A stretch of 64,000 nucleotides of DNA from the NCBI RefSeq assembly GCF_028736925.1, contig NZ_JAQZAT010000014.1:1-64000 (forward strand). Reading direction: 5' to 3'. Made by a program: the position numbers and the translations under genes. Source of the DNA: Flavivirga sp. 57AJ16 (GTDB taxonomy: Bacteria; Bacteroidota; Bacteroidia; Flavobacteriales; Flavobacteriaceae). Under the pieces are notes generated by a model. The model saw only the letters and a program-made list of their open reading frames with translations, was not told the origin of the DNA and searched no databases. This document shows, piece after piece, positions 5,866 to 17,632 of the stretch (position 1 is its first letter; the number at the start of each line of letters is the position of its first letter).

Positions 5866-7539
<1,674 letters not shown>

Positions 7540-7593
7540 TTAAAATAGTTATTTCAGAATTAGTTTCGGGTTATTTAAAGGGAATTTTAAGCC

Positions 7594-7797
7594 CTATTTT
7601 GGATATAATAAAAATACTTTATTATTCATATAATAAAGTATTTCTTGAACCACACTATCTTCAAGACAAGCCATAGGGGTGTTTCGCTCATTTCCTACCC
7701 TCTTCCCTAACCTGGCGCATCCTAGTATAAAACCAAATATTTTATTACTAATAAATTTAATCAATCGTCCTAAACCGATGCAAAATCCTACCAACAT
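7594..7797 (-). CDS. Doubtful small ORF, unknown
   Basis: A 67-codon ORF starting at ATG. It would encode a hydrophobic N-terminal segment followed by a basic region and then GNERNTPMAC. I recognise no family. Its 3' end overlaps the AT-rich palindrome at 7612-7643, which would be odd for a conserved gene, and codon use is unremarkable. It may be a gene remnant or a chance ORF in the pyrG-katE gap. Confidence 0.2.
   Translation of the reverse strand: MLVGFCIGLGRLIKFISNKIFGFILGCARLGKRVGNERNTPMACLEDSVVQEILYYMNNKVFLLYPK
7612..7643. terminator. AT-rich palindrome, possible bidirectional terminator
   Basis: A perfect 13-bp stem (7612-7624 with 7631-7643) and a 6-base loop. Read leftward the stem runs into TTTTT. 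It lies inside the pyrG-katE divergent region, where no known gene needs terminating unless the small ORF above it is real. Confidence 0.45.
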
Positions 7798-8120
7798 AAC
7801 AGCAACAACGAAAATAATGAAATCTACATTAGTGTTGTCTCATGGTTCCAAAATTTGAATTAACGTAAAGTATAATGTCATTTTAATAATCAATTATAAC
7901 TCAAAAAATAATCAAGAGTACCATACAAAATCAATTCTCTACTTTTTAAATTCAGTTAATTATTTGATTCTTTGATTACCGTAATACGAAGGGGGCGTTT
8001 GTTTGAGGTAATTTTTTTATTAATAGTGTTAATCTATATGTCTAAAAATGAAGAATTTCGAAACAATATTATGAGCAGAACTGGAAGCATATTTATTTAC
8101 AATACACAAATCATAAAAAA

Positions 8121-10259
8121 ATGGCTAAAGACAAAAAACATCCATTGGAATTAAAAAAAATAAAAGATTTGAAAGCGTCACAAAAGGAAATAAATGACAC
8201 TATCATGACGACAAATCAAGGATTGAAAATTAATGACACAAACAATTCGTTAAAATCGGGAGAGAGAGGTTCAACACTTTTGGAAGATTTTTTATTACGT
8301 GAGAAAATTACAAATTTCGATCATGAACGCATTCCTGAACGAATTGTTCACGCTAGAGGAAGTGCAGCACATGGTTATTTTGAGCTTTATGAAAGTATAG
8401 AGCAATTTAGTAAAGCAGGAATTTTTACAGATGTTAATAGAAAAACGCCTGTTTTTGTAAGGTTTTCTACGGTTGCAGGCTCTAAAGGCTCAACCGATTT
8501 AGCACGCGATGTACGAGGTTTTGCAGTGAAATTTTATACAGAAGAAGGGACTTGGGATTTGGTAGGCAATAATATGCCCATCTTTTTTATTCAAGACGCA
8601 ATGAAGTTTCCGGATCTTATTCATGCAGTGAAACCAGAACCTAATAGGGAAATCCCCCAGGCAGCATCGGCTCATGATACTTTTTATGATTTTGTATCAC
8701 GTACTACCGAAACGCTTCACAATCAAATTTGGGTAATGAGTGATAGAGCCATTCCTCGTAGTTTTCGAATGATGGAAGGTTTTGGTATTCATACATTTAG
8801 ATTAATAAATGAAAAAGGAGCTTCCCATTTTGTTAAGTTTCATTGGAAACCAATACTAGGTGTGCATTCTGTAACATGGGATGAAGCGGTTAAAATTAGT
8901 GGAGCTGATTCCGATTTTCATAGACGCGATTTATGGGATGCTATAGAGGCGGGTGAATTTCCGGAATGGGAATTAGGGATTCAAATAGTTCCTCAAGAAG
9001 ATGAATTTAAATTTGAATTCGATTTGTTAGACCCTACCAAATTAATTCCAGAAGAACTAGTTCCGGTACAGATTATTGGAAAAATGACCTTAAATAGAAA
9101 TCCCGAAAACTTTTTTGCAGAAACCGAGCAGGTGGCTTTCTTGCCCGGGCATATTGTTCCAGGTATAGATTTTACTAACGATCCCTTATTACAAGGGCGC
9201 TTATTTTCTTATAGAGACACACAGTTATCTAGATTAGGCGGACCGAATTTTCATCAAATTCCAATAAACCGCCCTGTGGCAGAATCCCACAACAATCAAC
9301 GCGATGGTCACATGCAAATGGAGATCCCAAAAGGGCAAACTGCTTATTTTCCAAATAGTTTAAGTGGTGGCTGCCCTCATTTATCCAAAATAGCCGAAGG
9401 TGCATTTCACTCATACGAAGAGCGTATAGACGCCAAAAAGATTAGAACTCGTAGTGAAAGTTTTAATGATCATTTTTCACAACCAGCACTATTTTACAGA
9501 AGTTTAGCTCCCTGGGAGCAACAACATATTGCAGAGGCCTATACATTCGAACTTGGTAAATGTAACCAGACTCATATACAAGAACGGATGCTCTGGCTCG
9601 TTTCTCAAATTGATACAGATTTGGCAAAAAAAGTAGCGGAAGGGTTAGGTCTTGAAATTCCTGCATCCATCCAACACCCCATTAATCAAGCCATAGGCGC
9701 AGATGCCGATGTAGAGCAACAACAACCGCCTAAAAAGAAAAATTACCTCGATGCTGCACCTACACTAAGTCAGGCCAATACTAAATTTGAAAGTATTGCT
9801 ACAAGACACATTGCGGTATTAGTAGCTGATGGTTTTTCTATGAAAAATTTAAAAAAAATGAAAAGTGTTCTCGAAAAAAAAGGGGCCTTTGTAAAATTAA
9901 TAGCACCTCATGGTGGTAAAGTAATGTGCGACGAGAATATGGGCCATACCGTAGATGCAGCAATCATGACTACTGAAAGTGTTTTGTTTGATGCACTATA
10001 TATTCCTGGGGGTAAAAAATCTATTGAAGGATTGAAGAAAGAACCAAAATTTATAAAGTTTATAAATGAAGCCTTTAAGCACTGTAAAGCTATCGCCGTA
10101 GATGATGAAGGTGAAGACCTAATTAACGATACTTTTGTTTCACAATCCAAACAGGATCCTGCTATTTTAATTAATAAAGACCCTATAAACTTTGTAGATG
10201 CTCTTGCAAAACATCGCAATTGGGATAGAATGGAATTTGTTAAAAACATACCCGTTTAA
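8121..10259 (+). CDS. katE: Large-subunit monofunctional catalase (HPII/KatE type)
   Basis: Degrades hydrogen peroxide to water and oxygen with a heme cofactor. At 712 residues it belongs to the large-subunit clade 2 catalases. Visible active-site features are RIVHARGSAAHG with the distal His77, DLVGNNMPIFF with the distal Asn near 150, and the proximal heme ligand Tyr364 in RLFSYRDTQLSRLGGPNF. After the core, from about residue 590, there is a flavodoxin-like class I glutamine-amidotransferase/DJ-1 fold domain (HIAVLVADGF ... YIPGG), as in E. coli HPII. The lysine-rich N-terminal extension and the ATG start after an A-rich leader fit the family. The gene is probably cytosolic and stress-inducible. 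The DUF2383 gene follows downstream. Confidence 0.96.
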   Translation: MAKDKKHPLELKKIKDLKASQKEINDTIMTTNQGLKINDTNNSLKSGERGSTLLEDFLLREKITNFDHERIPERIVHARGSAAHGYFELYESIEQFSKAGIFTDVNRKTPVFVRFSTVAGSKGSTDLARDVRGFAVKFYTEEGTWDLVGNNMPIFFIQDAMKFPDLIHAVKPEPNREIPQAASAHDTFYDFVSRTTETLHNQIWVMSDRAIPRSFRMMEGFGIHTFRLINEKGASHFVKFHWKPILGVHSVTWDEAVKISGADSDFHRRDLWDAIEAGEFPEWELGIQIVPQEDEFKFEFDLLDPTKLIPEELVPVQIIGKMTLNRNPENFFAETEQVAFLPGHIVPGIDFTNDPLLQGRLFSYRDTQLSRLGGPNFHQIPINRPVAESHNNQRDGHMQMEIPKGQTAYFPNSLSGGCPHLSKIAEGAFHSYEERIDAKKIRTRSESFNDHFSQPALFYRSLAPWEQQHIAEAYTFELGKCNQTHIQERMLWLVSQIDTDLAKKVAEGLGLEIPASIQHPINQAIGADADVEQQQPPKKKNYLDAAPTLSQANTKFESIATRHIAVLVADGFSMKNLKKMKSVLEKKGAFVKLIAPHGGKVMCDENMGHTVDAAIMTTESVLFDALYIPGGKKSIEGLKKEPKFIKFINEAFKHCKAIAVDDEGEDLINDTFVSQSKQDPAILINKDPINFVDALAKHRNWDRMEFVKNIPV

Positions 10260-10345
10260 AAGCTTTTTTTAGGACATTCAATGAAATAGTTATAGTGCAT
10301 CAACTCGATTCTGGAATCCAGTTAATAAAACAAGTTATTAGAAAA

Positions 10346-10465
10346 ATGACCATTAACGTATTAGTAGGAGTCGTACTTGGATATGTAATTTTTAATATAG
10401 GAAAGATAATTCTATATAGACCTTACAGTAACAATGATAAGCAAAATGATATTAGTAAACAGTAA
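10346..10465 (+). CDS. Possible 39-residue single-pass membrane micro-protein
   Basis: The ATG at 10346 opens 39 codons to a TAA at 10465. The product starts with a hydrophobic run, MTINVLVGVVLGYVIF, that could span the membrane, followed by a polar, charged tail (YRPYSNNDKQ...). The frame stays open upstream to a GTG at 10295, which would give about 56 residues. It lies between katE and the DUF2383 gene on the same strand, so it may belong to a stress operon. There is no homology I can name. The hydrophobic-then-polar layout is the main support. Confidence 0.4.
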   Translation: MTINVLVGVVLGYVIFNIGKIILYRPYSNNDKQNDISKQ

Positions 10466-10528
10466 AAAAAGATGTCATCCAATGGGCATCGTTAAAATAA
10501 GCCATTGTTAATTTAAAATGTAAAAGTT

Positions 10529-10978
10529 ATGAGTACATACACAGAAAACATAAGTAGTAAATTAAATGATCTTTTAGAAAAAACTTATGATGCAGAAAAA
10601 GGTTTTAAAAAAGCCGCAGCGAACACAGATCACACTTACTTAAAAAGATATTTTGAAAGAAAGTCCAAAGAGCGACATAATTTTGGACAAGACTTAAATA
10701 ATGAGATCCGATCGTTTGGAGAACGTGGTATTGAAAGCGGAAGCATAACAGCTGCTGCCCACCGTACCTGGATGGACATTAAAGCCTTGTTTTCAGTCGA
10801 TAATGACGAATCTATGCTTGAAGAAGCAATTAGAGGCGAAAAGGCAGCTGTACAGGAATATAAGGATGTTCTTACTGAAACATCACTGCCCATGAGCACG
10901 CATACTATATTGCTAAAACAACAAGATGCCATTGAAAGTGATTTAAGAACCATTAAAAGTTTGGAAGATCTACATTAG
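10529..10978 (+). CDS. DUF2383 / PA2169-family four-helix-bundle protein
   Basis: A 149-residue, fully helical, ferritin-like protein of the PA2169 family (DUF2383). Typical features are the opening with a leucine/lysine-rich helix (LLEKTYDAEKGFKKAA), the central KERHNFGQDLNNEIR, and the acidic EEAIRGEKAAVQEYKDVL helix with Glu residues spaced as in metal- or dimer-forming bundles. The biochemical role is not established; relatives appear in stress and stationary-phase genes. It follows the large catalase and the possible micro-protein, which suggests an oxidative or general stress setting. A terminator follows the stop. Confidence 0.85.
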   Translation: MSTYTENISSKLNDLLEKTYDAEKGFKKAAANTDHTYLKRYFERKSKERHNFGQDLNNEIRSFGERGIESGSITAAAHRTWMDIKALFSVDNDESMLEEAIRGEKAAVQEYKDVLTETSLPMSTHTILLKQQDAIESDLRTIKSLEDLH

Positions 10979-10999
10979 TTTTTAATGTCATTTCATAGA

Positions 11000-11032
11000 G
11001 AAGAGGGAAGTTTTATACTTCTCTTTTTTTGT
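11000..11032 (+). terminator. Terminator of the DUF2383 gene
   Basis: An AGAG..AAGT / ACTTCTCT hairpin with a 2-base bulge, followed by a run of seven T, about 25 bases after the stop codon. Confidence 0.7.
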
Positions 11033-11222
11033 GTCTATTATTTATAATATTTTTTTGTGAACTCGTTTAAAATACCCGGTCAATCTGAGCACATGTTTTT
11101 GTATGGCAGTAAAAATTAACAATTTCCTCAGGATTCTTTATTAAACAAATGAACCTCCTTTAATGAAATTTTACTTAGCAGGAATAATAGCTTAAGTTCA
11201 TTTTATTAATAAGTATCATTAG

Positions 11223-11444
11223 TGTCCGACTAAAGACATAAGACCGCTCCGCTATAAGAACCAAGAATAAAGACTTGACTGTAACTAACTAACAAGCAAA
11301 ACACATATCATCATTACTTTCCTGAAATCAGAATAATTCAGATAGTCTTAGTCAATATTAAAAGTAAAGTGGCTAAACAGCAAAGCTTTTACAAATACTC
11401 TTATAATCAAGTTTCAAACAGTATTCAATAGTTTTAATCGGACA
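11223..11444. mobile_element. MITE-like element with 12-bp terminal inverted repeats
   Basis: The left end TGTCCGACTAAA (11223-11234) and right end TTTAATCGGACA (11433-11444) are inverted repeats matching at 11 of 12 positions, enclosing 222 bases with no ORF. The layout is that of a non-autonomous element mobilised in trans. No target-site duplication is evident, so it may be an old, decayed copy. Confidence 0.5.
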
Positions 11445-11644
11445 ACAATAAATAAGTATAATAAACTATATTTTATATACGATTGCATTTTAGTAATGCT
11501 ATTGGCATGCTTTTAATAAAAGAAAATTTGTTTGTTAAAAAGGAAAATGGAAATTCTATAAAACATCAATAATATCTTATAATAAACAAGCTTTCAGTAT
11601 GTCGCATCTTTGTAGCATAAACAAACAATAAAATTTTAATTATT

Positions 11645-12298
11645 ATGAAAAATAAAATTCAATTAGTCGCAGCTCTACTTTTAACTTTTGGAGCATCCAT
11701 ACTACCATTACAAGCTCAAAAGGTTTCATCTTCTGGTGCAGGATTTGGTATAAAAGGCGGTGCTAATTTTTCAAATATGTACACGGACGATGTTGATGAT
11801 AACAATGTATTAACGAGCTTTAATGCTGGTTTATACGTAAGTATGCCAATTTCTGAGTCCTTAGCTATTCAACCTGAATTTCTGTTTAGCAGAAAAGGAT
11901 CAGAATTAACGTATGATAATGTCTTTGCAGAAGGAAAAGCCAAATTTAAATTAAACTATATTGAAGTACCCGTGTTGCTTAAGGCAAATATAACTCCAAA
12001 TTTTAACATTCATGTGGGACCGTATGTAGCCTATTTAATTGATGCACAAATCACCAATGAAACAGAAGGTGGTACGTTCGATTTTGAAGATAATTTTGAT
12101 AATGATGACTTCAATAAAATTGATGCAGGTATTTCTGCTGGTATTGGTTTTGATTTTGAATCCATTGGAATTGGAGCACGTTACAATTATGGACTTACAA
12201 CGGTTGGTAAAGAAAGAACGATAGGCACAGATAATTATACTATTCCCGATGGTAAAAATAGTAACCTAAGTGTATATATAGCATTTAAATTAAACTAA
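11645..12298 (+). CDS. Outer-membrane beta-barrel protein (porin family, PorT/OmpW-like)
   Basis: A 217-residue protein with a signal peptide (basic start, long hydrophobic run, cleavage near LQAQ). The mature part is typical of the Bacteroidota outer-membrane beta-barrel family: FGIKGGANFSNMY as the first strand, then alternating strands such as FNAGLYVSMPISESLAIQPE and FLFSRKGSEL, YIEVPVLLKAN, and a terminal strand LSVYIAFKLN ending in an amphipathic pattern. Members of this family are abundant and their cargo is mostly unknown. The gene is monocistronic by position, with a long leader. Confidence 0.85.
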   Translation: MKNKIQLVAALLLTFGASILPLQAQKVSSSGAGFGIKGGANFSNMYTDDVDDNNVLTSFNAGLYVSMPISESLAIQPEFLFSRKGSELTYDNVFAEGKAKFKLNYIEVPVLLKANITPNFNIHVGPYVAYLIDAQITNETEGGTFDFEDNFDNDDFNKIDAGISAGIGFDFESIGIGARYNYGLTTVGKERTIGTDNYTIPDGKNSNLSVYIAFKLN

Positions 12299-12625
12299 AT
12301 GAAGTAGCTAATATAATGCAATTATTAGGGTATAGGTGGCGTTGCAGAATGGTTGTCCTATTGGTAAATATTAATTTAAGCGTATAGTAGAGAGCGCTTT
12401 TTAAAGAGTTAATTATTTAGACTTTTTAGTGTTGTACTTAAAATCTATTTAAATTAACTCTTTATTTGGTTACAACAGAAATAAAATGATTGAAATTCCA
12501 ATTATTAACAACAAAATCAAACCCCACCAATTCCATTATACAGGTGCTTTTTTTAACTACTAAAGAATATAATAACAATAATGCCATGATTTTTTCACCT
12601 AGTGTTGAATTTAAAAAAGATTAGA
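12299..12625. other. Intergenic region before the SemiSWEET gene
   Basis: About 330 bases, AT-rich. I see no ORF of note, no convincing hairpin terminator and no repeat shared with other parts of the window. Confidence 0.5.
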
Positions 12626-12892
12626 ATGAAACTAGAAGAAATTATAGGGATTTTAGCTGGGGTCTTCACCACTATAGCTGTACTACCACAAATTACGAAA
12701 GCTATTAAAACAGGAAGTGTAGAAGATGTCAACCCTTATATGTTTGTAATCTTGTGTATGGGTGTTGGACTGTGGGTCGTATATGGAATTATGAAACAGG
12801 ATTGGCCAATCATTATTACAAATGGTATTTCCTTCTTTCTTAATGGCATCATGCTTTGCTTAATAATTTTCCCTATTTCCCGAGGAAATTAA
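12626..12892 (+). CDS. SemiSWEET family sugar transporter
   Basis: An 88-residue membrane protein with three predicted helices, the size and fold of bacterial SemiSWEETs, which dimerise to pass sugars down their gradient. Signatures are LPQITKAIKTGSVEDVNPYM (PQ-loop-like, after helix 1), the GVGLWVVYGIM second helix and the third helix with a conserved Asn (ITNGISFFLNGIMLCLI). An upstream in-frame GTG at 12602 is less likely than the ATG at 12626, because the eight added residues are polar and not conserved in the family. The substrate is unknown. Confidence 0.88.
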   Translation: MKLEEIIGILAGVFTTIAVLPQITKAIKTGSVEDVNPYMFVILCMGVGLWVVYGIMKQDWPIIITNGISFFLNGIMLCLIIFPISRGN

Positions 12893-13031
12893 TCCCATGA
12901 GATTACAAGATCAATTTTCTTAATAGATCAGGCTTATTTAGTATTTGAATAGCTTTTTAAACCATTGTAAAATCTATTTATAATTATAAACCCTTTCTAG
13001 TAAAGCATCTCTAAAATGAGAAAGAATGATC

Positions 13032-13063
13032 TTGTTCAATAGAATTCTTAATATTATTCTTTG
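13032..13063 (+). promoter_or_regulatory. Candidate promoter of the GntA-like/DUF1989 unit
   Basis: TTG at 13032-13034, a 20-base spacer and TATTCTTTG at 13055-13063, which is one base longer than the TAnnTTTG consensus. The start codon follows 61 bases later. Confidence 0.35.
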
Positions 13064-13124
13064 AGCACATTTAATCATACTGTTATTTATAATTTTAGTA
13101 TGAACGCATTTAAAAAATATAATT

Positions 13125-13784
13125 ATGAAACAACTAGAATTAAATAAAATTCAACTGGAATATAGAGATTTTATAATTAATAAAAAGCATCCATGTGTCA
13201 TGGCAAAGACGGTTTTTGCCATGAATAAGTATCACTTAAATATTTATGATGATATATCTTCCGATAAAGTGATCATGCCTATCCTTTTGGACATTAAAAA
13301 CTATTTAGATAAATATGATGACAAATCTAAGGAATTTGAATCGTTAATAATTTGTTTTAAAAACAGTAAATTTAAATCTGATCTAGAATTTGAAAATGCT
13401 TTGTGGAACTTTTTACAAAAACTTCATGATCATGATCATACCGCTTGGGATTCTAATGTAAGTCAAGATCCAAATAATCCAAATTTTAGCTTTAGTTTAA
13501 AAGGCAAAGCTTTTTATATTGTAGGTATGCATCCAGGAAGTTCTAGATTGGCAAGAAAAGCTCCTTATTGTACCATAGTTTTTAATTTACATTCGCAGTT
13601 TGAAAAATTAAGACAAATGGGGATATACAAAAATATTAAGAAAAGGATTCGAAAACGTGATATGGCATTACAAGGTTCTATAAACCCTGTATTAGCTGAT
13701 TATGGTTCAGATACGGAAGCGAAACAATATAGTGGCAGGGCAGTTGAGAAAGAATGGACATGCCCTTTTTCTGCCAAAAATTAA
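13125..13784 (+). CDS. YqcI/YcgG family protein, GntA/DcsA-like putative heme N-hydroxylase
   Basis: A 219-residue protein of the YqcI/YcgG family. Characterised relatives are GntA (N-hydroxylation in guanitoxin synthesis) and DcsA (N-hydroxylation of arginine in D-cycloserine synthesis), heme enzymes acting on guanidine nitrogens. The family motifs are all present: HPCVMA at residues 22-27, GMHPGSSRLAR at 134-144, FNLHSQFEKLR at 153-163, QGSINP at 183-188 and QYSGR at 201-205. His22, His136 and His156 are candidate heme or catalytic residues. An unusual HDHDH run lies at 101-105. The DUF1989 gene follows after 6 bases. The neighbourhood contains no guanitoxin or cycloserine genes, so the substrate is open; a guanidine compound is inference. 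Confidence 0.85.
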   Translation: MKQLELNKIQLEYRDFIINKKHPCVMAKTVFAMNKYHLNIYDDISSDKVIMPILLDIKNYLDKYDDKSKEFESLIICFKNSKFKSDLEFENALWNFLQKLHDHDHTAWDSNVSQDPNNPNFSFSLKGKAFYIVGMHPGSSRLARKAPYCTIVFNLHSQFEKLRQMGIYKNIKKRIRKRDMALQGSINPVLADYGSDTEAKQYSGRAVEKEWTCPFSAKN

Positions 13785-13790
13785 AAATAC

Positions 13791-14417
13791 ATGAGAACGG
13801 TCAATATTATACCACCTCAATCGGGTAAGGCATTTGAAATGAACAAAGGTGATCTCCTCACTGTAATTGATCCAGAGGGAAAGCAAGTAAGCGATATGGT
13901 TCTTTTTAATCGTGCAGATAAAAGAGAAAAAATTTCTTCCGGAAAAACTATGGATTTTGAAGAAACCATTTTATTAACGAAAGGAAATTTTTTATGGAGC
14001 AATCGCTCCAAAAAAATGATGGAGATAAAAGAGGATACTAACGGAAGAAATGATTTTTTATTAGCACCGTGCAGTCCAGAAACTTTTAAGATTATGTACA
14101 ACGATCCGTCTTACCATCCTAGTTGTTTGGAAAATCTCCATAAAAATTTGACTAGATTCAGTATTGAAATTGATAATATCCCTACTGCATTCAATATTTT
14201 TATGAATGTTCAGTTTGATGAAACTGGTAAACTTAAAGTGCTACCTCCAACTTCTAGACAAGGAGACTTTATTCGTTTTAAAGCTGAAATGGATTTAATA
14301 GTAGGGTTAACAGCTTGTTCTGCAGAAGATAGTAATGGCGGTTTTTTTAAACCTATTCATTTTATTGTTACGAATGGTAAAGGTGTCATAAAAAATATTG
14401 TAAACGATTTTACATAA
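13791..14417 (+). CDS. DUF1989 (urea carboxylase-associated) family protein
   Basis: A 208-residue DUF1989 protein. Known members include urea carboxylase-associated proteins and the CgdAB carboxyguanidine deiminase, which hydrolyse guanidine-derived carbamates. Conserved parts are the ISSGKTMDFEETILLTKGNFLWSN-like central block (residues about 48-71), LAPCSPETF with Cys94, HPSCLENL with His109 and Cys112, FNIFMNV at 134-140, and EMDLIVGLTACSA with Cys176. The Cys/His set suggests a metal site. It is translationally close to the GntA-like gene (6-base gap), so the two probably act on the same guanidine-type compound. No urea carboxylase or allophanate hydrolase gene is nearby. Confidence 0.88.
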   Translation: MRTVNIIPPQSGKAFEMNKGDLLTVIDPEGKQVSDMVLFNRADKREKISSGKTMDFEETILLTKGNFLWSNRSKKMMEIKEDTNGRNDFLLAPCSPETFKIMYNDPSYHPSCLENLHKNLTRFSIEIDNIPTAFNIFMNVQFDETGKLKVLPPTSRQGDFIRFKAEMDLIVGLTACSAEDSNGGFFKPIHFIVTNGKGVIKNIVNDFT

Positions 14418-14547
14418 TTTTCGATGGATTAAAAATATAAAAAGTAGTTCTTTTTTTTGGTTTTTAATGTTTAATTCTAAATAATTCCCCGAAGGCTCTG
14501 CCTCGAGGATAGTCTGTTTCAAGATTTTTTTTATTTTGAAATAAACA

Positions 14548-14775
14548 TTATTTAGGAAACTGCCTCTGGATATTCCGAATCAAATCCTCCAGTCCATTCA
14601 TTTTTAAATCATAAACCTGAGCAAGCATATCCCCTAGTTTTCCTTTTGGAAATCCTTTGTTATGGTACCATACCACGTAATATTCTGGCAAATCAATGAG
14701 GTAACGGTCTTTGTATTTACCAAAAGGCATTTTGGTATGTGCCAAATCTATAAGAAATTGTTTATCCGGAAGCAT
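14548..14775 (-). CDS. DUF3820 family protein
   Basis: A 75-residue protein with the DUF3820 pattern: an MPFGKYKDRYLIDLPEYYVVW-like block in the first half and the FPKGKLGDML segment. The family is annotated as putative quorum-sensing-regulated virulence factor, but its function is unproven and it may bind nucleic acid. It starts 4 bases after the DUF922 gene ends, so the pair is an operon. Length and composition are normal. Confidence 0.85.
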   Translation of the reverse strand: MLPDKQFLIDLAHTKMPFGKYKDRYLIDLPEYYVVWYHNKGFPKGKLGDMLAQVYDLKMNGLEDLIRNIQRQFPK

Positions 14776-14779
14776 ATAT

Positions 14780-15319
14780 TTAATCTACCTGTTTATATTG
14801 GGATCGTTTTTTTAATTCGTCGGCAATATATATTTTCCACTTTGTTTGGGCATCAACATTTCTGGAATAATTGGTTTCAGAATCATACCTGTTTTGCATC
14901 TGTGAAAGTTCCTTATTAATTGTGTTCTGAATACTTTTTAATTGATTTCTAACACCATTGGATACTTTAACCTGATCTATTCGCTGTCTAAATTTACGAG
15001 CATGCAACTCTGTAATATCAAAATGTAACCGTTCATGATCTAACACATGAGAATCTGCTTGTTCTTTTTTATACCATGATTTTTGGGGGTAAAAATGCGC
15101 ATGCACTTCAGAAGTAAAATTGACGACCTCATCATCTGATGTGCTTATCGAAAAGCCAAACGTAATACCCGATGCCGTTACGGCTACTGCGCGCTCATTT
15201 TTAGTAGGCGTACCTTTAAAATCTGACCAGGATAATTTATAAGATTCGTTCCAGGCTATAATGGGCTCCTCTTGTTGGATACAAAAAAAACAACATATAA
15301 TAAAGAATAGTCTAATCAC
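14780..15319 (-). CDS. DUF922 family protein, putative secreted metallopeptidase
   Basis: A 179-residue protein with a short hydrophobic N-terminus (about residues 2-14) that acts as signal or anchor. The DUF922 core includes LSWSDFKGTP at 29-38 and the zincin-like helix HERLHFDITELHARKFR at 95-111, in which HERLH fits HExxH with a further His106. The family is predicted to be Zn-dependent proteases, without biochemical proof that I can name. It heads a two-gene unit with DUF3820, and no partner substrate is visible. Confidence 0.8.
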   Translation of the reverse strand: MIRLFFIICCFFCIQQEEPIIAWNESYKLSWSDFKGTPTKNERAVAVTASGITFGFSISTSDDEVVNFTSEVHAHFYPQKSWYKKEQADSHVLDHERLHFDITELHARKFRQRIDQVKVSNGVRNQLKSIQNTINKELSQMQNRYDSETNYSRNVDAQTKWKIYIADELKKRSQYKQVD

Positions 15320-15465: not shown

Positions 15466-17403
15466 TTATTGTTTTACCTCAACAATGGTTAAGTCGTCAT
15501 ACTTAACCAAATACACCGTATTGTTATAATAACCGCCAAAAAGCTTCTTTTTGTATGCGAATTTATTTTCTACATACTCTGTAAGCTGAGCCTCATTAAC
15601 AGACAGATATAGATCTTCTGAAGATACTAAACGTAATACAACATCCATAGTTAAATCAAAACCTTTAACGGCCCTATTGTTAGGTGTCATATTATAAGTT
15701 TGTTTATATTTTTTAACAAAGGTGTTATTATCGTTTTCATTATAGGCTCTTGACATGGTTGCAAAATGAAATTGTAAATCTGATAAATGGGTGTTATCCA
15801 CCGCATCATCCTCAAAAGCAGAATTGATATTGGTAGTAACCAACACAATCTCTATAGCTTCTTTTCTTTCTTGCCTATTCTCTTCTTGAATTAGTGATGC
15901 CAAAATACTTGTGACATTGGAAACAAATCCAGAATCATGAGTTTCTAAAAACACGATGTTTCTTCCTGGGTTTAATTTATCTTGAATATCATCTTTATTC
16001 ACGAAATATTTATCGTCACCCTTTTTATCTTTTCTGGAAAGAATTTGCTTAGCGTAATTAAACTCGCGCTTAAGGTCATCTGAAACTTTTTTATTTTTAG
16101 TGTCAGAGATAATTATAATATTATTGGTCAAAGTATCAGCCCTTACAAAATTTACAATCTTCTTTTTTAATAGATCATTTGATGGTCTTGATTGGAATAC
16201 ATTATTGTACAACTTTAAGTTTGTTCCTATGGGAGATATAACCGGGATATTAAACTTCCCTAATTTCAAAGCAGCTTCTTCAAAATTACTAGGTGTTAAT
16301 GGCCCAATAACGGCATCAACATTTTCAAAGTCATTTTTATCAATGATATCCTTAACCACACCTACTTCATTTCTAGTATCGTACACATTTACTTTAAGGG
16401 AAATCCCTAATGCTTTAAGAGAATCCAGTGCCATCAAAACACCTGAATGAAAATCTAGTGAGGCATTTAAATAAGGATCTTTTTCAATACTGTTCTTAGT
16501 ATCGGATACAGAATCAAAATCCACACGGTTTAGCCTGAAGGGCAACATAATAGCTATGTGCTTTGTATTAAAATCGGTAATACTATCCACTAAATTAACC
16601 TTATGAGAATCCAATCCTATAATACCATCGGCTAAACTAGAATACGGTATTTTTAAGATCATTCCTGATTTTAATCCCCCTTCTTTTAAAGCGGGGTTTA
16701 AAGCTTCCAGTTCTGGCTGCTCTAAACCTAATTTAATCTTTAGTCTATAAAATCCTTCTTTTGGTAATACTTTATAATAGCTGTACCTCTCATCTACTAC
16801 TTTTTCTTCTTCATCCCCTATATTTGGTACATTTAAGACCTGTCCTTCTTTTAATACCTCGCCCATTTCGGGGTTAAGATCTTCAAGTTCTTTAACGGTT
16901 ATCCCAAATTTATAAGCAATGCGCCATTTACCTTCTTTGGGAAGTACTGTATAAGTTTTAGTAAGTTTGTTAACTTCTTCAACTTCTGTAACTTTAAATA
17001 TTGGAATTTGAAGTTTGTCACCTTTACGTAAAGGTTCGGCATATAAAAACTTATTATGCTTTTTTATCTCTTCTACAGTGACATTATACTGTTGCGATAA
17101 ACTATAAAGTGTTTGCTTTTTTTTAGTTCTATGCTTTTTAAAGCCTTCTAATTCTTTTATGATAGTTACCTTGGGAGTCTCCGATATCTTAGACTTAGGA
17201 ATAATTAAAACGGAATTAACTCTTAATTCTGTTTTGGCATCCGGGTTTAAACTATAAATATCTGAAGGTGTTATTAAGTATTTCTTTGCTATACTTTCAA
17301 TGGTTTCTCCTTGCTGAACTTTATGAGTGCTGTAATTTTGGGCTTGAGCAGTACCAAAACTAAATAATAGTACTAAGCATAAAACGAAAAAGAATTTATT
17401 CAT
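15466..17403 (-). CDS. LysM-repeat protein with periplasmic-binding (type 1) domain
   Basis: 645 residues from the ATG at 17403. I prefer this start over the longer frame (17463) because it begins directly with a clean signal peptide, MNKFFFVLCLVLLFSFGTAQA. Four LysM-like units follow (about residues 22-250), each ending in an IP or VPN turn. They are typical peptidoglycan-binding modules. From about residue 275 there is a class I periplasmic-binding fold (HIAIMLPF, later VDAVIGPLTPSNFEEAA), as in penicillin-binding-protein activators and amino-acid receptors. A role in cell-wall sensing or synthesis control is inferred. It lies downstream of guaA on the same strand. Confidence 0.85.
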   Translation of the reverse strand: MNKFFFVLCLVLLFSFGTAQAQNYSTHKVQQGETIESIAKKYLITPSDIYSLNPDAKTELRVNSVLIIPKSKISETPKVTIIKELEGFKKHRTKKKQTLYSLSQQYNVTVEEIKKHNKFLYAEPLRKGDKLQIPIFKVTEVEEVNKLTKTYTVLPKEGKWRIAYKFGITVKELEDLNPEMGEVLKEGQVLNVPNIGDEEEKVVDERYSYYKVLPKEGFYRLKIKLGLEQPELEALNPALKEGGLKSGMILKIPYSSLADGIIGLDSHKVNLVDSITDFNTKHIAIMLPFRLNRVDFDSVSDTKNSIEKDPYLNASLDFHSGVLMALDSLKALGISLKVNVYDTRNEVGVVKDIIDKNDFENVDAVIGPLTPSNFEEAALKLGKFNIPVISPIGTNLKLYNNVFQSRPSNDLLKKKIVNFVRADTLTNNIIIISDTKNKKVSDDLKREFNYAKQILSRKDKKGDDKYFVNKDDIQDKLNPGRNIVFLETHDSGFVSNVTSILASLIQEENRQERKEAIEIVLVTTNINSAFEDDAVDNTHLSDLQFHFATMSRAYNENDNNTFVKKYKQTYNMTPNNRAVKGFDLTMDVVLRLVSSEDLYLSVNEAQLTEYVENKFAYKKKLFGGYYNNTVYLVKYDDLTIVEVKQ

Positions 17404-17632
17404 GTAATCTGTTTTTAAATGGCGCTTAAGGGGTATTCCCGCAATTTTATTCAGGAAAACCATCCTCTCCTTTTTAAGGATACATATAGTATGCCAAAAA
17501 AAGAAAAATATGATGTATAACCTAAAAATACTTTTGAACTCACTTAGCTATATACGGTTATTTATAATAACTGGGATGATTTCAAAAAATAAATATAATT
17601 TATAATTATTATAACGTCTAATTTAAAATTTA

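Follow-up and report, generated by a model that had tools for sequence, protein, structure and literature searches.

The window analysed here, a stretch of 64,000 nucleotides from contig NZ_JAQZAT010000014.1 of Flavivirga sp. 57AJ16, contains a block of approximately 7 kb with six plus-strand genes (8121-14417), encoding a catalase, a DUF2383 protein, an outer-membrane protein, a SemiSWEET transporter, a GntA-like protein and a DUF1989 protein, with minus-strand genes around it. The features are as follows:

7589..14538, no strand given: island with the six-gene plus-strand block; homology to relatives in the genus ends at 7588-7636 and restarts at 14539-14548
8121..10259, plus strand: long HPII-like catalase carrying a C-terminal domain, the first of the six block genes (PF00199, 4.8e-179; PF18011, 4.5e-16)
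10529..10978, plus strand: DUF2383 four-helix-bundle protein, in the block (PF09537, 2.2e-33; TIGR02284, 83.6 bits)
11645..12298, plus strand: outer-membrane beta-barrel protein, in the block (PF13568, 8.3e-27)
12602..12892, plus strand: SemiSWEET transporter, directly upstream of the pair (NF037968, 92.2 bits, cut-off 80)
13125..13784, plus strand: predicted GntA-like (YqcI/YcgG family) heme-thiolate N-hydroxylase, 219 aa (PF08892, NF041366)
13791..14417, plus strand: DUF1989 protein, single domain, 208 aa (PF09347, 2.9e-55)

The GntA-like reading frame matches the Pfam family YqcI_YcgG (PF08892) with an E-value of 1.9e-63 and scores 295 bits against the NCBIfam GntA equivalog NF041366, above its cut-off of 145; it is the sole PF08892 match of the source genome. 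All five motifs that a preliminary description had read in this gene (HPC, GMHPGSSR, NLHSQFE, QGSINP and QYSGR) are found in its translation, and the families proposed there for both genes are confirmed by these matches and by that of the second gene to PF09347. The spacing of six bases between the two genes also holds (13125-13784, then 13791-14417, both on the plus strand), while the start at 13032 had to be given up, as this position lies upstream of the GntA-like gene, which begins with an ATG at 13125. For the DUF1989 protein the nearest named NCBIfam models are the urea-amidolyase-associated proteins, and it is below the cut-offs of both (TIGR03424 and TIGR03425), with 105 of 285 bits for UAAP2 and 79 of 206 bits for UAAP1. 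The catalase, at 1016.8 bits, is below the HPII equivalog cut-off of 1102. Solved structures exist for homologues.

Within the genus, GntA is present in one of 12 genomes and the nearby LysM gene (15466-17463) in all 12. The site of the island was compared in five of the 11 relatives, whose site stretches contain no match to any of the six block genes. The flanking genes, 5866-7506 and 14780-15319, are both present without the block in G687, G679, G681 and G248; the stretch from G684 has only the right flank in common with the window. In place of the block, G679 has 155 bases and G248 about 0.9 kb, and G681 and G687 have about 1.7 and 4 kb with other genes, by eye one TetR-like and one hydrolase-like. 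The site is variable, and because the block is missing there in four relatives, the six genes were either gained here or lost in the relatives, absence from the rest of the relatives' genomes having been tested for GntA only. No integrase was found among the window genes scanned by Pfam. Transposon-like ends were rejected: among the repeats listed (20 of 22 direct, 25 of 61 inverted) there is no long exact repeat at both ends, and the best is a 34-nt inverted match with 71% identity.

Co-occurrence and genomic context of the two genes

The association of the two families was examined in a sample of 299 genomes of the family and another of 395 genomes of the phylum, with some genomes in both. 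GntA over the cut-off is present in 35 of the family genomes, all of which also carry DUF1989; DUF1989 occurs in 37, the remaining two being among the other 264, namely G217, which has a tandem pair, and G025, whose match is weaker. At E <= 0.001 the GntA genomes rise to 37, the extra two (G079 and G175) being weak and without DUF1989. Fisher's test of this co-occurrence gives 1.2e-43, a naive value not corrected for descent. In the phylum sample GntA is found in nine genomes and DUF1989 in ten; going by the coordinates, the two genes stand no more than a few tens of bases apart in all nine GntA genomes, and the tenth DUF1989 genome, G444, has a tandem DUF1989 pair. A lack of statistical linkage, which the preliminary description had named as evidence against a functional pair, was therefore looked for and not seen in either sample.

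Gene order was analysed at 36 family GntA loci besides the window; the weak G175 match (L100) yields neither protein at the limit applied. DUF1989 lies near GntA in 34 of the 36, always on the strand that carries GntA, the two exceptions being second copies in G266 and G111. The gap is between -74 and +42 bases in 22 of these loci, the negative values depending on the start chosen. An FMN_bind_2 (PaiB-like) gene stands between the two in eight loci (for instance L064:5597-6214) and an MgtC gene in two; at L072 a gap of 550 bases contains no named family, and in G256 (L094) the full-length GntA is about 4 kb away, with a shorter GntA-like ORF beside DUF1989. Pairwise distances of the two proteins correlate over 47 loci (Mantel r 0.84, 0 of 2000 permutations), partly because of shared descent. 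The adjacency is not due to chance. Both families also match in the Bacillus subtilis control genome, where ycgG and ycgI presumably lie near each other.

The pair also occurs on plasmids. The plasmid collection holds 29 records with a GntA-like match, 16 of them with at least 80% query coverage, and in 13 of these 16 a DUF1989 gene directly follows (Bacteroidota, alpha- and betaproteobacteria and Deinococcus). The 13 come from Chryseobacterium, Hymenobacter, two Comamonas, a Comamonadaceae strain, two Sphingobium, two Novosphingobium, two Sphingomonas, Skermanella and Deinococcus. The DUF1989 genes of Hymenobacter and Sphingobium V4 were located by tblastn, that of Hymenobacter being absent from the gene table and in two pieces. 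Downstream of the pair on the Chryseobacterium plasmid lie ligD and cphA, the latter encoding cyanophycin synthetase, which makes an arginine-containing polymer (L101:7295-12642). No DUF1989 match was found near the GntA-like gene in the stretches taken from a Rahnella and two Streptomyces plasmids, where the homologues lie near oxidoreductase or exporter genes; the Rahnella row (GntA-like, SDR, 2Fe-2S, LysE, MOSC; L106:5941-11226) resembles a biosynthetic cluster. One record was opened out of 13 weaker plasmid matches, the haloarchaeal Natrinema plasmid, in which an amidohydrolase gene and an isochorismatase-family gene flank a distant YqcI/YcgG gene (L125:3486-6304), perhaps another pairing of hydroxylase and hydrolase.

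Neither alignment retrieved a relative from IMG/VR. The phage collection includes one record that carries both genes (L170:5786-7101), the 8.6-kb UNVERIFIED faecal scaffold MT836826, which is probably bacterial DNA. The contig collection, scanned with one sequence, gave only two weak Algoriphagus matches. A role in phage defence was considered and dropped, there being no PADLOC match.

Neighbouring genes were counted at 36 pair loci of the family, mostly stretches of 13 kb, and in 28 arbitrary 13-kb control stretches from 28 of the same genomes. YetF/DUF421 was counted at 20 of the 36 pair loci, SemiSWEET at 19, FMN_bind_2 at 11, DUF892 at ten, and ATP-dependent DNA ligase and FMN reductase at five each, all against none of the 28 controls, and SDR at 12 against two. 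Since these families had been chosen for recurring at pair loci, the test leans towards enrichment and its p-values flatter; nor do loci from related genera count as independent. No significant enrichment is seen for catalase (4/36 against 0/28, p 0.09), Ku (3/36 against 0/28, p 0.17) or DUF2383 (2/36 against 1/28, p 0.59). By what is generally known of these families, YetF, SemiSWEET, DUF892 and catalase count as stress-type genes. At L088 and L089, from another genus, the genes again stand in the order catalase, SemiSWEET, YetF, GntA, DUF1989. Beyond Bacteroidota, the pair has YetF in its vicinity in Sphingobium and a catalase-family peroxidase in Comamonadaceae OTU4NAUVB1; in most other plasmid stretches no shared stress-type neighbour was seen. 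Two families of small proteins, of 184 aa (L084:8181-8732) and 148 aa (L090:4149-4592), lie near the pair in 12/36 and 11/36 loci, respectively, and in none of the 28 controls; neither has a Pfam or NCBIfam match.

Among six other window genes scanned by Pfam there is no reductase and none looks biosynthetic, and no other guanitoxin gene adjoins the pair. The annotated plasmid stretches with the pair contain no second guanitoxin-named gene and no NRPS or PKS gene. Placement of the pair outside any guanitoxin or cycloserine cluster, as first described, therefore holds: neither Pfam in the window nor the plasmid annotation reveals a recognised biosynthetic cluster, and the idea of a guanitoxin cluster finds no support in the window neighbourhood.

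Conserved residues and phylogeny of the two proteins

The positions in the GntA-like protein were counted by hand on a printed profile alignment with AglA. PMC12866846 gives, for AglA, Cys44 as heme ligand, Arg166 as heme-carboxylate arginine, Phe152 and Phe182 as substrate-clamp aromatics, and Gln177 and Arg179 as touching the guanidine and the backbone. Window C24, the predicted heme ligand, aligns to Cys44, and R144, the predicted heme-carboxylate arginine, to Arg166, and each is invariant in the 48 rows labelled paired, which supports a heme-ligand residue in the first protein. Y131 and F159, the predicted clamp aromatics, align to Phe152 and Phe182, with F159 kept in 48/48 rows, and N154 (48/48) and H156 (47/48) to Gln177 and Arg179; as the paired set has Asn/His at these two positions, its substrate pocket differs from that of AglA. 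The protein is thus like AglA, GntA, ChmN and DcsA in its family match, invariant heme-ligand Cys, heme-carboxylate Arg and aromatic clamp, and unlike them in its constant DUF1989 partner and in having no recognised natural-product cluster around it. A single clade of paired GntA proteins was rejected, since unpaired proteins nest among the paired ones in the tree.

In the DUF1989 protein, C94, C112 and C176 align to C263, C279 and C343, the zinc cysteines of Tdm according to PMC12560246, and are kept in 47 of 47 paired rows, so that a zinc site is predicted for the second protein. The position of Tdm H276, a proposed Fe ligand, is His in 43 of the 47 rows, and that of D346 is not conserved. 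Unlike Tdm, the window protein has no GcvT domain, its 208 residues comprising DUF1989 only; with the iron site not conserved, identity as a TMAO demethylase was rejected.

The preliminary description had further pointed to a carboxyguanidine deiminase. UAAP2 we take to correspond to CgdB and UAAP1 to CgdA. The tree of 56 DUF1989 rows places all 47 paired proteins on one side of a branch (support 65/47, weak; 69% of bootstraps), with only nine outgroup rows and a program warning of long branches. Six UAAP1/UAAP2-type rows, two annotated so in Pantoea and the four members of the G444 and G217 tandems, form a separate group (98/86). D55, S181, N182 and K187 are present in 47/47 paired proteins and all four differ in 6/6 UAAP1/UAAP2-type rows; N182 and K187 are also found in DUF1989 proteins of Halalkalicoccus and Klebsiella. 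The window protein shares the family with CgdA/CgdB and its three cysteines with three UAAP2-type rows, and differs from them in lying outside the six rows, in being a single gene rather than a tandem, and in a source genome with no guanidine carboxylase over the cut-off. The deiminase identity was accordingly rejected on the tree, the cut-offs and the missing carboxylase. The CgdA/CgdB clade itself is defined in PMC11410670, and carboxyguanidine deiminase is a DUF1989 enzyme.

Proposed role and alternative explanations

Because the pair travels together across several phyla and here lies in an island with stress-type genes, the two genes probably form an undescribed two-step pathway. Of the first proposal, the functional pairing is supported by co-occurrence and gene order; deiminase type and nitrogen scavenging are not supported. 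The reading we favour, tentatively and with a little under even confidence, is a mobile module of two enzymes predicted from sequence to N-hydroxylate a guanidine and then cleave the product in a zinc-dependent manner, in the service of stress survival rather than nitrogen scavenging or toxin synthesis. N-hydroxylation is the best guess for the first step because of the chemistry of the family: members of YqcI/YcgG are described as guanidine N-hydroxylases in PMC12866846 and PMC10849742. Cleavage is suggested for the second because carboxyguanidine deiminase is of the same family and the zinc site is conserved. Points that weigh against this reading are the pocket residues that differ from AglA, the GntA-like genes with no DUF1989 neighbour (Rahnella, two Streptomyces, the second copies in G266 and G111), the paired GntA proteins falling outside a single clade, the lack of a reductase among the window neighbours scanned, the non-significant counts of catalase, Ku and DUF2383, and the plasmid loci beyond Bacteroidota, most of them with no shared stress-type neighbour.

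By family analogy, the thiolate-heme enzyme would use O2 and two electrons to N-hydroxylate the guanidine group of a small metabolite, most likely L-arginine or a close relative. A housekeeping reductase may supply the electrons; in some species the supplier may instead be the FMN_bind_2 protein, a candidate donor whose gene stands between those of the pair. The zinc DUF1989 protein would then act on the N-hydroxyguanidine, most likely hydrolysing a C-N bond at the guanidine carbon and yielding hydroxylamine, ammonia or a product of hydroxyurea type. DcsA and DcsB of D-cycloserine biosynthesis follow the same logic, arginine N-hydroxylation and then a hydrolase; DcsB is arginase-like and not DUF1989, and both belong to an antibiotic cluster, unlike the present pair.

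A less likely explanation, to be taken seriously nonetheless, is that the two proteins cooperate on something other than a guanidine (a small amine, an amidine or a nucleobase), or that DUF1989 is a partner subunit or a protein handling metal or substrate. The pocket residues that differ from AglA are in its favour, as are the haloarchaeal plasmid, where the partners of a distant YqcI/YcgG gene are instead an amidohydrolase and an isochorismatase-family gene, and the unlike chemistries of DUF1989 members, such as the demethylation of TMAO by the DUF1989-containing Tdm (PMC12560246). On the other side stand the published description of the family as guanidine hydroxylases, although the activity of DcsA is given as not confirmed in vitro in PMC10849742, and the fully conserved zinc site, which suggests catalysis. 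We regard it as improbable that free guanidine or guanidino compounds are broken down oxidatively to supply nitrogen, replacing the guanidine carboxylase route. A catabolic route was one of the possibilities first put forward, and signs of guanidine nitrogen scavenging are missing: the source genome has no urea/guanidine carboxylase over the cut-off (best TIGR02712 score 537 of 1304 bits) and no urease match, 32 of the 35 pair genomes have no strong urease match (one, G031, has a weak match below the cut-off), neither the window stretch nor any of 21 related loci has a guanidine riboswitch by Rfam, whose only matches are two group II intron pieces in L105, and the neighbours are of stress type. 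The points for catabolism are the urea-amidolyase-associated proteins as closest named DUF1989 models, the catabolic look of operons with other DUF1989 genes, and a strong urease match that is commoner in pair genomes, 3/35 against 2/264 others (these five being the strong ones among 11 genomes at E <= 0.001). The source genome has three ureohydrolase-family genes.

The NCBI name implies that a small N-hydroxyguanidine natural product is made, which seems to us quite improbable. The score against the NF041366 equivalog and the Rahnella and Streptomyces homologues beside oxidoreductase or exporter genes speak for it. Against it are the window genes scanned, none of biosynthetic appearance, the annotated plasmid stretches and the constancy of DUF1989 as partner. 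DUF1989 is not known as a guanitoxin gene. The name "guanitoxin biosynthesis GntA" is probably misleading here. The source genome has no NO synthase, the NOS oxygenase domain PF02898 being absent. A NOS-independent oxidation of arginine or guanidine for stress defence could be imagined, inherited here along with catalase and further survival genes, in which the heme enzyme would make an N-hydroxyguanidine and the zinc DUF1989 protein would break it down to a reactive nitrogen signal, be it NO, HNO or hydroxylamine, or to a hydroxyurea that quenches radicals; we give this version little credence.

Direct searches of the open-licence PMC literature found no publication joining DUF1989 and YqcI/YcgG; PMC2922099 assigns YqcI/YcgG to peptide-synthesis operons. 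Both families are already known; what is new is their pairing, the island setting and the likely misnaming. Given the strong linkage, the question of the substrate is directly testable with two small proteins. In the literature found, the YqcI/YcgG enzymes of known role serve natural-product synthesis, and an automatic toxin-pathway name has been put on genes with a different partner in many species. If the proposal is true, it would give the YqcI/YcgG family its first role in primary or stress metabolism and a group of DUF1989 proteins a function.
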